The notes beneath the pieces are model-generated. The model did not search any database, was not told the origin of the DNA, and was given only the letters and a program-made list of their open reading frames with translations. From Ochrobactrum quorumnocens (GTDB lineage Bacteria > Pseudomonadota > Alphaproteobacteria > Rhizobiales > Rhizobiaceae), in assembly GCF_002278035.1 (NCBI RefSeq), contig NZ_CP022603.1, positions 744,001-808,000 of the forward strand: a DNA stretch of 64,000 bases. The letters are read 5' to 3'. Made by a program: the position numbers and the translations under genes. Shown here in pieces: positions 18,772 through 26,083 of the stretch; the first letter of the stretch is position 1, and each line of letters starts with the position of its first letter.

Positions 18772-20094
18772 CTAACTGGCGGCGGCTGCACATTCTTTGA
18801 GGATTTGCAGCACAGCGCCACGTTCTTCAATTTGTGGCATATGTCCACAACCAGCGAAGACATGGATGCCCACCTTGCCCGGCAAGCCGTGTGCATGGGC
18901 GACAGGAATGACCCGATCCTCAGCACCGAAGATGAGCCGCACCGGCATTGCAAGCGAGGCAATGCATGAGCGCACCTCAAAAGTCTGCGTGCCATCTGCA
19001 AAGAACCGATCGCCAATCGCACCCTGCGTGTCGCGCAGTTCTGCATCAGCTGCTTGTGCAACTGTTGCATTGATGAACGGCTTCGTCAGATGGCTCTCAT
19101 CGGCGACGAGCAGCTTCAGCCAGGGAACGATGCTGGCTTCGCTTTTCGCGCCGATAAGACCCTTGATAAACGCACCATTGACCTGCGGTCCCAAACCACC
19201 CGAAGAAATCAGCAGCAGAGAGCGCACATCGACAACACTACGCGCGGCGGTGACTGTAGCAACCGCCCCGCCAAGCGAGTGACCGACCAACAGGCAAGAT
19301 GTCACACCGAAGGCCGAAAGCGTCGTTTCGACGGCAACGGCAATGTCATCGATACTTTCAGGAACGACACGTGGTGAATTGCCGTGTCCCGGAAGATCAA
19401 GCGCCAGTATCGGATGGCCGAGCGATGCCCCGGCCAACAATCCACGCCAGGAGTTGATGTCAGCTGCAAAGCCGTGGATCAGAACAATCGGCAAGCGATT
19501 GGTCTCACCCTCTCGCAACCAGACTGCATTCAACGGGTCGATGGCCGCGTCTTCTCTATGTGTGCGGTTAACCGACCAGACTGGTGCAGCCACGGTTTTG
19601 GCGACGCTGATATTGCTTTCAACATCCTTTTTCTGAACACGACCTTTGGGTCCAGATCCCTGAATGCCTGCCAGATCGATCCCCGCTTCACGCGCCATTC
19701 GGCGCGCAAGTGGCGTTGCCCGCACATCGTCAGTCGAACCTGCTGCATCGTCTTGGGAGGACTTAGGTTCAACATGTTTCTGAGCAATCGGTTCGACGGA
19801 AGCTGAAACTGGCTTCTCTTCGACAACAGGTACCGAAGTTCCAACCCGCTCTTCGCCTTCATCATAAATCCAGGCGACTGTCTGACCAACCGGCACAACA
19901 GCGCCTTCAGCAGCACTGATGTCCGCAATGATACCTGATGCCGGAGCATCAATTTCCATCGCGGCCTTGTCAGTCTCAATTTCAAAGAGAAGCTGGCCCT
20001 TCGTGACGGTATCGCCATCCTTGGCGTACCAGCGCGAAATCTGGCCCGTCTCCATGTCCATATCGACTTTGGGGAGAATGACTTCCACAGCCAT
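18772..20094 (-). CDS. AcoC-like lipoyl / alpha-beta-hydrolase protein (acyloin dehydrogenase E2)
   Basis: A 440-aa protein with three parts: a lipoyl domain (about 1-80, lipoyl Lys43 in ETDKAAME), an E3-binding domain (about 123-160, ATPLARRMAREAGIDL) and an alpha/beta-hydrolase domain (about 190-440; nucleophile elbow GHSLGG, later FGAEDRVIP and GCGHM for Asp and His). It lacks the HxxxDG acyltransferase domain of true E2 proteins. The same layout is known for AcoC of acetoin dehydrogenase systems in Pseudomonas. It would carry the acyl group made by AcoA/AcoB to CoA. It is the last gene of the DRL-acoABC operon; no E3 gene is present. Confidence 0.85.
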   Translation of the reverse strand: MAVEVILPKVDMDMETGQISRWYAKDGDTVTKGQLLFEIETDKAAMEIDAPASGIIADISAAEGAVVPVGQTVAWIYDEGEERVGTSVPVVEEKPVSASVEPIAQKHVEPKSSQDDAAGSTDDVRATPLARRMAREAGIDLAGIQGSGPKGRVQKKDVESNISVAKTVAAPVWSVNRTHREDAAIDPLNAVWLREGETNRLPIVLIHGFAADINSWRGLLAGASLGHPILALDLPGHGNSPRVVPESIDDIAVAVETTLSAFGVTSCLLVGHSLGGAVATVTAARSVVDVRSLLLISSGGLGPQVNGAFIKGLIGAKSEASIVPWLKLLVADESHLTKPFINATVAQAADAELRDTQGAIGDRFFADGTQTFEVRSCIASLAMPVRLIFGAEDRVIPVAHAHGLPGKVGIHVFAGCGHMPQIEERGAVLQILKECAAAAS

Positions 20095-20096
20095 GG

Positions 20097-21095
20097 TCAG
20101 CGAACTCCCTTAGCCAGATCGCGCGCGCTTTTCACAATGTCAGGGACCTGCGGAACGGTTGCACGCTCAAGATCGGGATTATATGGAATTGGAGTTTCTG
20201 CCCCGCCAAGACGCACAATCGGCGCATCAAGATAATCAAACGCATCGCTTTCGGCCACGATTGCGGAGATTTCGGCACCAATACCAAGCGTTTTGACCGC
20301 TTCATAAACGCATAGAAGCCTGGAAGTCTTCTTCACGCTTCTAATGATGGTTTCACGATCAATCGGGCGCACGGTGCGCAGATCGATCACTTCGACATCA
20401 ATACCTTCCTTGGCGAGTTCTGCGGCAGCATCAAGCGACTTGTGCACCATGATTGCTGTTGCGACGATAGTCAGGTCTCGGCCTTCGCGAACCACTTCCG
20501 CCTTACCGATTGGCACAGTGTAGAAGCCTTCGGGAACCGGCCCTTTGGTCTTATAGAGAAGTTTGTGCTCGAAAATCATAACTGGATCAGGATCTTCAAC
20601 AGCTGCAAGCAACATGCCTTTGGCATCATAAGGTGTCGATGGCTGCAAAACCTTGAGACCGGGAACATGGCCGAGCCATGCTTCAAGGCTCTGGCTGTGC
20701 TGTGCTGCAGCACCCGTGCCCGAGCCAGCTGGAAAGCGCATGACCAGCGGCACCGAAACCGCACCGCCAAGCATGTAACGGATTTTTGCAGCCTGATTAA
20801 CAATCTGCTCCATGGCGAGGGCAGCAAAGTCGGAAAACTGGAACTCAAAGATCGGACGCATGCCGGTCAGCGCCGCACCAACTGCAACGCCAGCGCCACC
20901 GAGCTCGGAAATAGGGGTGTCCATAACCCGGTCTTCACCAAAGCGATGAACCAGATCACCAGTCACCTGAAATGCGCCGCCATAGACGCCAATGTCTTCA
21001 CCCATAAGAAACACGCGCTCGTCGCGCTCCATGGCGATTGCCATGGCTTCCTGGATAGCTTGCGAATAGCTCAACTCACGGATTGTCGTGTCCAT
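20097..21095 (-). CDS. Acetoin-dehydrogenase-like E1 beta subunit
   Basis: A 332-aa transketolase-type protein of the PDHB/AcoB family, with EDIGVYGGAFQVT, the DTPISELGGAGVAVGAAL segment and the C-terminal domain LRTVRPIDRETIIRSVKKTSR. With the alpha subunit it forms the thiamine-diphosphate E1 that cleaves an alpha-hydroxyketone or decarboxylates a 2-oxoacid. Only two bases separate it from the genes on each side, so translation is coupled. The missing pyruvate-type regulation and the hydrolase-type E2 next door point to acyloin cleavage rather than a housekeeping oxoacid complex. Confidence 0.88.
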   Translation of the reverse strand: MDTTIRELSYSQAIQEAMAIAMERDERVFLMGEDIGVYGGAFQVTGDLVHRFGEDRVMDTPISELGGAGVAVGAALTGMRPIFEFQFSDFAALAMEQIVNQAAKIRYMLGGAVSVPLVMRFPAGSGTGAAAQHSQSLEAWLGHVPGLKVLQPSTPYDAKGMLLAAVEDPDPVMIFEHKLLYKTKGPVPEGFYTVPIGKAEVVREGRDLTIVATAIMVHKSLDAAAELAKEGIDVEVIDLRTVRPIDRETIIRSVKKTSRLLCVYEAVKTLGIGAEISAIVAESDAFDYLDAPIVRLGGAETPIPYNPDLERATVPQVPDIVKSARDLAKGVR

Positions 21096-21097
21096 GT

Positions 21098-25209: not shown

Positions 25210-25231
25210 CTTTCTTTAAACGGAGAATAGA

Positions 25232-25693
25232 ATGGCTGCTGGTCTGATTGATTATCTCGACCCACAAGCGATCGAGCTTCAGAGCGACGCGAAGACCAAC
25301 GAAGAAATTATCCGCATACTGGCTGGAAAGCTGGAAAAGCTGGGCTATGTCAAGCCAGGCTATGCGGATGCTGTCGTCAGCCGTGAGTTGACAATGCCGA
25401 CCGGATTGCCGCTTGAGCGCGAAGATAACGTTGCGGTGCCTCACACCGATCCTGAGCATGTGATTAAAGCTGGCATTGCATTTGCGACACTGACATCGCC
25501 TGTCCAGTTTGCCAATATGGAAGACCCGGAAGAAGCTGTCCCTGTTGGATATGTCTTTCTGCTTGCCATCAATGACAAGGACAAACAGATTGAGACCTTG
25601 CAGCAGATCATGGCAACCATTCAGGATGCTGATGCCCTCGACAGATTGAAAGCAGCGCGGACGCTTGAAGACGTCGAAGCCGCTTTACAATAA
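25232..25693 (+). CDS. gatA: Galactitol-type PTS subunit IIA
   Basis: A 153-aa cytoplasmic protein of the PTS IIA type 2 (fructose/mannitol/galactitol) family. The phosphorylated histidine is His71 in NVAVPHTDPEHV, with MPTGLPLE just before, as in GatA. It accepts phosphate from HPr, presumably the HPr-EI protein at 14709-16691, and passes it to IIB. GGAGA precedes the ATG. Gene order IIC-IIA-IIB differs from the enterobacterial gatABC order. Confidence 0.9.
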   Translation: MAAGLIDYLDPQAIELQSDAKTNEEIIRILAGKLEKLGYVKPGYADAVVSRELTMPTGLPLEREDNVAVPHTDPEHVIKAGIAFATLTSPVQFANMEDPEEAVPVGYVFLLAINDKDKQIETLQQIMATIQDADALDRLKAARTLEDVEAALQ

Positions 25694-25795
25694 AGACTGT
25701 TCGCCCAGAGGGCAGCAAGTCTTTACATCTGAATTTGAGACAAGAAAAATACGATATTCGTGCGTTAAATGCACGAACACCAATTGGAGGAAACC

Positions 25796-26083
25796 ATGGC
25801 TAAAATGAAAACAATTCTCTTCGCTTGCGGCACTGGGGTGGCTACATCTACAGCAGTGAATGCAGCCGTTACCGAAGAAATGAAAAAGCGCGGCCTCACC
25901 TTCAATGCTCAACAGGCAAAAGCAACGGAAGTTCCTTCTCTCGCCGACAATGTGGATTTCATCGTCTCGACGACACCTATTTCGGCTTCAGTTACCAAGC
26001 TGGTCATCAAGGGCCTGCCCTTCCTGACTGGAATTGGCAAAGATAAAGCATTCGACGACATCGAAGCTGAATTGCGCAAATAA
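25796..26083 (+). CDS. gatB: Galactitol-type PTS subunit IIB
   Basis: A 95-aa protein, the usual GatB length. The phosphorylated cysteine is Cys11 in the loop ILFACGTGVATST, with a lactose/galactitol-IIB-type fold implied. It transfers phosphate to the polyol during transport. The ATG at 25796 follows TTGGAGG; the upstream ATG at 25769 lacks a site. It closes the plus-strand gat operon and is followed by a strong terminator. Confidence 0.9.
   Translation: MAKMKTILFACGTGVATSTAVNAAVTEEMKKRGLTFNAQQAKATEVPSLADNVDFIVSTTPISASVTKLVIKGLPFLTGIGKDKAFDDIEAELRK

Follow-up and report, generated by a model that had tools for sequence, protein, structure and literature searches.

The window analysed here is a 64,000-nucleotide stretch of the Ochrobactrum quorumnocens genome (G000:C2:744001-808000; genome of 5.65 Mb in four contigs), and our subject within it is a minus-strand operon encoding a DRL (DXR-II family) oxidoreductase, the two E1 subunits and the E2 of an acetoin-dehydrogenase-like complex, from which the genes of a Gat-type phosphotransferase system (PTS) diverge. 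A preliminary description had singled out this oxidoreductase with its three acetoin-dehydrogenase-like genes beside a galactitol-type PTS, and its coordinates (18772-26083) proved exact and its domains were confirmed by Pfam; the gene set was right but too narrow, having missed a Gut-type PTS, an HPr-enzyme I fusion, a SorC-type regulator and an operator shared among the operons. The features of the locus are as follows.

11768..11777, plus strand: operator ACAAATGTTC before the Gut PTS operon, here in its 21-base form RACAAATGTTCWNTWATNGAT with 0 mismatches
11841..12272, plus strand: GutM (PF06923, 92 bits)
12280..13095, plus strand: EIIC-GUT, an open frame whose true start is probably internal (PF03608, 211 bits, residues 94-266)
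13117..14103, plus strand: EIIB-GUT (PF03612, PF07663)
14220..14600, plus strand: EIIA-GUT (PF03829)
14709..16691, plus strand: HPr-enzyme I fusion (PF00381, PF05524, PF00391, PF02896)
17683..18711, plus strand: SorC-type sugar-binding regulator (PF04198, 186 bits)
18772..20094, minus strand: E2 of the AcoC type, with lipoyl domain, E3-binding domain and alpha/beta-hydrolase tail (NF011457, PF00364, PF02817, PF12697)
20097..21095, minus strand: E1 beta, thiamine diphosphate (ThDP)-dependent (PF02779, PF02780), in the clade of DRL-linked E1s
21098..22135, minus strand: E1 alpha, ThDP-dependent, with the motif RGLIHGTMHLS (PF00676)
22148..23467, minus strand: DRL (DXR-II family) oxidoreductase with NAD-type residue Glu55 (PF21135 DRL_cat, 226 bits)
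23529..23538, minus strand: operator ACAAATGTTC before the DRL operon, immediately after a TTGAC box
23627..23636, plus strand: operator ACAAATGTTC before the Gat PTS operon
23720..25153, plus strand: EIIC-GAT, counted from GTG 23720 (PF03611, 295 bits; TIGR00827, 442 bits, under the cut-off of 542)
25232..25693, plus strand: EIIA (PTS_EIIA_2; PF00359)
25769..26083, plus strand: EIIB of the Gat type (PF02302; NF007643 under cut-off)

The word ACAAATGTTC occurs in three exact copies in the window against 0.17 expected, a number that 0 of 100 shuffles reached, and the 21-base form RACAAATGTTCWNTWATNGAT, searched at up to two mismatches, has two sites in the 5.65-Mb genome, both in the window (a reversed control gave 0 matches). 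Because the word precedes all three operons (DRL, Gat and Gut) and its long form is unique to the window, we regard it as well supported by the DNA itself that these three operons form one regulon. Relatives repeat the arrangement: at up to one mismatch on either strand within 250 bases upstream, the operator precedes 36 of 41 operon-type DRLs, as against 2 of 47 DRLs without the operon and 0.6 of 41 shuffled operon upstreams. At the same tolerance it precedes GutM in 18 of the 19 loci that could be used (23 given) and lies before the binding protein gene of an ATP-binding cassette (ABC) transporter in 11 of 13 (13 given), and it is exact before GatC in 7 of 7 upstreams (7 given), the match counted in L018 being the DRL-facing one; shuffled upstreams gave 0.1-0.2 for these three counts. 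Divergent ABC/DRL layouts have a single common site, so the ABC and DRL counts are partly non-independent. Before the SorC gene the operator was seen, at up to one mismatch, in 4 of 17 loci (17 given, all usable), 3 of these in common with the ABC gene. A TTGAC box, intact or degenerate, precedes the operator in 13 of 15 upstreams inspected, which is the layout expected of a repressor site, and we infer that the SorC protein is probably the repressor of the regulon and the binder of ACAAATGTTC.

The named loci are the top 80 among 178 relatives from named genomes, and they were searched with the window proteins by tblastn. The order DRL-E1alpha-E1beta-E2 is contiguous on one strand in 34 of these 80, a count that excludes L091, whose neighboring E1 is of another type, and L126, whose DRL is interrupted by one stop; of the 46 non-operon loci, 6 extend less than 4.5 kb downstream. 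(A looser rule had given 46 of 123 loci, with duplicates, and is superseded by this count and by the 17 of 97 given below; the DRL tree and the first residue count keep the loose operon labels, 41 rows including L091.) Where each flank reaches 9.5 kb or more, a Gut/Gat PTS or an ABC transporter adjoins 17 of the 22 operon loci and none of the 32 others (p 5.6e-10). The operon is accompanied by Gut and Gat PTS plus enzyme I (EI) on a Rhizobium L51/94 plasmid record and by a Gut PTS with EI in a Terrarubrum record; Burkholderia MS389 has the order SorC-DRL-E1-E2-Gut-EI, and the Firmicute Priestia holds Gut PTS, E1/E2/Lpd, SorC, DRL and an FGGY kinase together. In plasmid records of S. meliloti Rm41 and, similarly, of Rhizobium N324, an ABC transporter and a PfkB sugar kinase take the place of the PTS. 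Sinorhizobium fredii NGR234 is a further carrier of the operon. Whether PTS or ABC transporter plus kinase, the product would be a phosphorylated polyol or sugar, as the DRL would need. Cofactor genes adjoin the operon in three loci (L005, L006, L034), with thiC/O/S, thiazole synthase, thiamine phosphate synthase and thiD in Rhizobium L51/94 and lpdA and lipA in S. meliloti Rm41 and a metagenome-assembled genome (MAG).

The window DRL matches the Brucella DRL 3upl over its full length (residues 1-435, E 1.5e-215), and also 3upy, and among the best loci Brucella tritici and Ochrobactrum chromiisoli carry DRLs 98% identical to it. It retains the active-site residues K191, K193, T229, H250 and R320 and the dimer residues Glu174, Phe178 and Tyr322; the excerpts of PMC3847144 list Lys191, Lys193, Thr229, Arg320, Glu174, Phe178 and Tyr322 for DXR-II. 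Thr229 and His250, which together separate DXR-II from DLO1/DLO2, are both present in the window DRL and in 0 of 8 weaker outgroup homologues. Where it departs from the Brucella enzyme is in lying within a PTS/E1/E2 regulon, in having Glu55-Leu56 rather than Ala-Arg, and in the reversed direction that we propose for it.

A second DRL, 75% identical to the window copy, stands alone at G000:C3:1822905-1824218 between genes that by eye are HAD hydrolase-like and transhydrogenase subunit-like, which rules out the window DRL as the sole DXR of its genome. The preliminary description had proposed looking for a second DRL or a canonical dxr, and that search yielded this stand-alone copy and no DXR-I (0 matches to PF08436, with 9 of 14 control genomes positive); the genome also encodes IspG and a DXS-like gene (639-residue frame). 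Among 50 genomes tested from the 80 loci, DXR-I is present in 9, all 9 of which have the operon, and in 0 of the 20 genomes counted as lacking it (the genome of L059 being counted as operon-bearing owing to its second copy, L142).

We also drew 151 genomes evenly from the window's family, finding a DRL (E <= 1e-140) in 89, DXR-I in 55 and both in 6. With the own genome excluded, 97 DRL places were examined in 88 genomes, and the operon stands at 17 of them (6 of the 80 others have less than 2.6 kb downstream). Four of the six genomes with both enzymes bear the operon; in a fifth the DRL stops 146 bases short of a contig end and is flanked on its other side by a sugar kinase, and the sixth, G100, has no operon and a partial DXR-I match in a 130-residue frame. 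The 17 operon genomes hold DXR-I in 4 cases, a second non-NAD-type DRL in 5 and a second NAD-type DRL in 2, so that another DXR accompanies the operon in 11 of 17. Five genomes (G001, G002, G003, G034, G169) each pair a single operon DRL (95-98%) with a single stand-alone one (74-75%), and a further member of the genus, G066, has the stand-alone type only, which marks the operon as accessory. The excerpts of PMC3847144 report two functional DXR-II copies in O. anthropi and, given the recurrence of that pair in each of the five genomes, one of these two paralogues should be the orthologue of the window DRL. In Aminobacter, the operon copy with the internal stop (L126, G014:C25) coexists with an intact stand-alone NAD-type copy, L031.

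Operon DRLs carry Asp or Glu, usually followed by a hydrophobic residue, 20 residues past the last glycine of GxGxxG, a position at which, by the Rossmann rule, an acidic residue goes with NAD and a motif of the basic type with NADP. The window DRL reads Ser-Glu-Leu-Arg (SELR; Glu55-Leu56) against SARR in the stand-alone DRL of the same genome, and does not match the NADPH-type basic motif of the biosynthetic enzyme; stand-alone DRLs of Ochrobactrum, Mesorhizobium, Devosia and Bartonella mostly have Ala-Arg, Thr-Arg or Ser-Arg. From this spacing and rule we suppose that operon DRLs use NAD, with Glu55 closing the second strand, at the 2'-position of the cofactor. Counting as NAD-type any DRL with D or E at residue 55 and one of LIVMFHA at residue 56, we found the type in 41 of 41 E1-linked DRL rows (loose operon rule) as against 13 of 49 others, eight outgroup rows excluded, and in 17 of 17 operon DRLs of the family sample as against 16 of 80 others (p 3.1e-10), where "NADP-type" means merely not NAD-type and includes Asp-Thr-Arg; the rule was set after viewing the first alignment and then applied to the family sample, and the two sets share some genomes or near relatives. 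Four Firmicutes DRLs examined are all NAD-type, all with Gut PTS genes nearby.

The complex resembles the AcoABC acetoin dehydrogenase, which cleaves an acyloin to acetyl-CoA and an aldehyde, in its E1 alpha, E1 beta and E2 with alpha/beta-hydrolase tail, and the E2 passes the acetoin E2 model NF011457 (432 bits, cut-off 307). The E1s, however, form a clade of their own and lie in a sugar PTS and SorC context. In a tree using 26 of the 44 extracted E1 pairs, 25 of these 26 DRL-adjacent pairs form one clade (support 100/100), the exception being L091; the clade is joined (97/89) by the DRL-linked pair of Priestia and by a pair from C. difficile that neighbors a SorC gene and a PTS, and seven pairs from acetoin-type operons make a separate branch (91/85). 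The ThDP-site motif of E1 alpha is [RK]G.[IV]HGT.HL[SC] in the DRL clade and.G.IPGF.HLY in the seven acetoin-context proteins; the window complex thus has IHGT.HLS rather than IPGF.HLY, as well as GHSKSDRNR rather than GHFEGD or similar. Compared with human pyruvate dehydrogenase (PDH), Thr replaces the Phe ahead of the active-site His, whose functional roles we take to be those of the human residues, and His57, Thr59 and Ser63 are common to all 43 DRL-group E1alphas (L091 excluded). Arg53 was rejected as a diagnostic residue, being found in one acetoin-context E1 also. A hydrophobic wall would in this way be exchanged for polar residues, fitting a hydroxylated, phosphorylated leaving aldehyde. 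Acetoin catabolism was rejected on E1 clade, active-site motif, operator and gene context.

Two E1/E2 sets without a DRL were also seen. About 16 kb past the high end of the window, a second AcoABC-like set (L164, G000:C2:824000-838000) sits in a sugar operon with genes that by eye are SorC-like, ABC transporter, E1alpha, E1beta, an E2 that has a hydrolase tail as well as two lipoyl-like stretches, an FGGY-like kinase and two SDR-like genes, which suggests that AcoABC-like complexes may cleave other deoxyketoses too. In C. difficile (L167/L172), SorC, E1alpha, E1beta, E2, Lpd, a sigma-54-interacting regulator and PTS IIA/IIB/IIC lie near lipoate ligase and ispD/ispF, with no DRL in the stretch seen; its "plasmid" record bears tRNA ligase genes and looks chromosomal.

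As to the remaining genes of the locus, the Gut PTS set is complete, with GutM, EIIC, EIIB and EIIA all of Gut type as named by Pfam, and the Gat subunits all score under the cut-offs of the galactitol models (442 of 542 bits for IIC, 58 of 139 for IIA, 41 of 95 for IIB). GatC more likely starts at ATG 23744, which is preceded by GGGGGGAGGAG and has a better ribosome site than GTG 23720. The HPr-enzyme I fusion is dedicated energy coupling for the PTS. A Pfam scan of 29 window open reading frames (ORFs; 4675-31679, small ORFs lying outside the scan) showed no acoX, AcoR or acetoin reductase, and no sorbitol-6-P dehydrogenase, galactitol/sorbitol dehydrogenase or aldolase; the minus-strand frames at 16750-17586, between EI and SorC, and at 11022-11657, left of GutM, had no Pfam match. 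The locus thus shares with the polyol operons gat and srl/gut its EIIABC sets and GutM, and differs from them in having DRL and E1/E2, its own HPr-EI, and none of those dehydrogenases or aldolases in the scanned ORFs. Sugar ABC transporter and PfkB kinase genes at 4675-10536 have a degenerate operator upstream (10763-10782, minus strand, 3 mismatches), and could be a member of the regulon or a chance match.

We propose that a branched polyol, most likely 2-C-methylerythritol, would be imported as its phosphate, 2-C-methylerythritol 4-phosphate (MEP), which the DRL with NAD+ would oxidize and rearrange to 1-deoxyxylulose 5-phosphate (DXP), the reverse of the second step of the MEP pathway. E1alpha/E1beta would then remove the acetyl unit from DXP on ThDP, freeing glyceraldehyde 3-phosphate, and the acetyl group would pass via the E2 lipoate to CoA to give acetyl-CoA, making the complex a "DXP dehydrogenase" rather than an acetoin dehydrogenase, with the stand-alone DRL elsewhere in the genome supplying isoprenoid synthesis. 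The two PTSs would probably import two related substrates, and our guess is methylerythritol for Gut, for which DRL would be needed, and 1-deoxyxylulose for Gat, for which it would not. There are partial parallels: the D-apulose-4-phosphate transketolase route uses ThDP cleavage of a ketose phosphate derived from a branched sugar, by transketolase there and by what would be an oxidative E1/E2 complex here. The excerpts of PMC3424233 describe E. coli PDH E1 (aceE) mutants that form DXP in vivo, a precedent for an E1 handling this bond, in the opposite sense.

The preliminary description had suggested a catabolic pathway of this kind, and its catabolic side fared well: the shared operator, the recurrent synteny, the exchange of PTS for ABC transporter and sugar kinase, the other DXR in 11 of 17 operon genomes, the NAD-type residue and E1s that branch apart from those of acetoin operons strongly support a catabolic role for the operon. 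The methylerythritol/DXP chemistry is the reading that appears to fit all parts with least strain, with 1-deoxyxylulose or another branched polyol as possible alternative substrates, and we think it probable, though well short of certain, that this is a regulon for uptake and catabolism of methylerythritol via a reversed DXR step and DXP cleavage.

Several observations weigh against that proposal. The DXR equilibrium favors MEP, so the reverse direction would have to be driven by the oxidative step. Six of the 17 operon genomes in the family sample yielded no other DXR; there the operon DRL may also make MEP, and we see these genomes as the chief evidence against a role in catabolism alone. 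A tree-aware pairing of residue and operon gave 3 independent pairs for, 0 against and 4 ties (p 0.25, not significant). Among no-operon genomes of the family sample, 11 of 71 have an NAD-type DRL but lack DXR-I, and the DRLs found in Phyllobacterium G004, G005 and G023 were all NAD-type, with no DXR-I found there either; the residue by itself therefore does not exclude biosynthesis. In a Phyllobacterium T1293 record the DRL follows a sugar ABC transporter and E1/E2 are missing, and Listeria, Enterococcus raffinosus and Ligilactobacillus have the DRL with a Gut PTS and no E1/E2 within about 10 kb on each side, so that in these three Firmicutes DXP, if formed, takes another route or the substrate differs. 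In Ligilactobacillus (L009) fsa and tkt follow the DRL/Gut PTS genes, and in an Aestuariivirga MAG (L151) the neighbors of an NAD-type DRL are a class II aldolase and an FGGY kinase; both contexts may represent other fates of the product.

These last two contexts also suggest that the family at large acts on various substrates, and speak for an explanation in which the regulon is the same and the substrate another, the DRL being a plain or rearranging polyol-phosphate dehydrogenase (for, e.g., a 1-deoxy-pentitol phosphate or a branched tetritol such as apiitol) and E1/E2 cleaving the resulting acyloin. That the Gat subunits fall under the galactitol cut-offs and the Gut subunits are named by Pfam only would suit it, but the retained DXR-II active-site residues, and the report in the excerpts of PMC3847144 that both O. 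anthropi DRLs are functional DXRs, point to MEP and DXP, and we consider it unlikely while giving it real weight. Less credible still is that the operon DRL is a second biosynthetic DXR, with E1/E2 degrading acetoin or pyruvate and the PTSs being ordinary sorbitol and galactitol importers: for all that the E2 passes the acetoin model and six operon genomes yielded no other DXR, this improbable account has to face one operator word ahead of all three operons, E1s that fall outside the acetoin clade and differ from it in active-site motif, the lack of acoX, AcoR, acetoin reductase and sorbitol-6-P dehydrogenase in the 29 scanned ORFs, the NAD-type residue, and the occurrence of the operon in genomes with DXR-I. 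A forward overflow or supply route, in which PTS-imported 1-deoxyxylulose gives DXP that DRL reduces to MEP for isoprenoid synthesis, with E1/E2 clearing the surplus, finds an echo in the C. difficile set, with the same E1 type beside a PTS near ispD/ispF, and we hold it very improbable, as the NAD-type residue suits oxidation and a stand-alone NADP-type DRL is already in the genome.

Returning to the catabolic proposal, a broader idea about the family can be put forward tentatively, with a little less belief than doubt: that DXR-II was at its root catabolic and NAD-dependent, feeding branched polyols (methylerythritol from plants and isoprene aerosol) to DXP and on to acetyl-CoA and glyceraldehyde 3-phosphate via a dedicated DXP dehydrogenase complex, and that isoprenoid use in Brucella, Bartonella, Devosia and others was a later recruitment with an NAD-to-NADP switch followed by loss of DXR-I. 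In the DRL tree the outgroup does not fall on one side of a branch, leaving it not cleanly rooted, and the operon label needs 10 changes, which makes the catabolic-first order a matter of inference.

Full-text searches of open-licence PMC papers turned up no account of methylerythritol catabolism, of a DRL beside PTS/E1/E2 or of a DXP-cleaving complex. A text search of PMC3847144 on operon, catabolism, phosphotransferase, genomic context, sorbitol and reverse reaction gave a single hit, in the title of a reference, and the excerpt of PMC8791446 has nothing on DRL. As excerpted, PMC3847144 leaves open the origin of redundant DXR-II in DXR-I bacteria and describes an active DXR-II in Finegoldia, in whose genome no other MEP or mevalonate (MVA) genes were found; a catabolic role, if true, would answer both. 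It would likewise offer a fate for the 2-methylerythritol of isoprene-derived aerosol, one of the 2-methyltetrols that serve as its tracers (PMC4740749, as excerpted), and would add to the 2-oxo-acid/acetoin dehydrogenase complexes a new member cleaving a sugar phosphate. Operons now labelled "homoserine dehydrogenase" or "NAD(P)H-dependent oxidoreductase" plus "pyruvate/acetoin dehydrogenase" could then be given new names.

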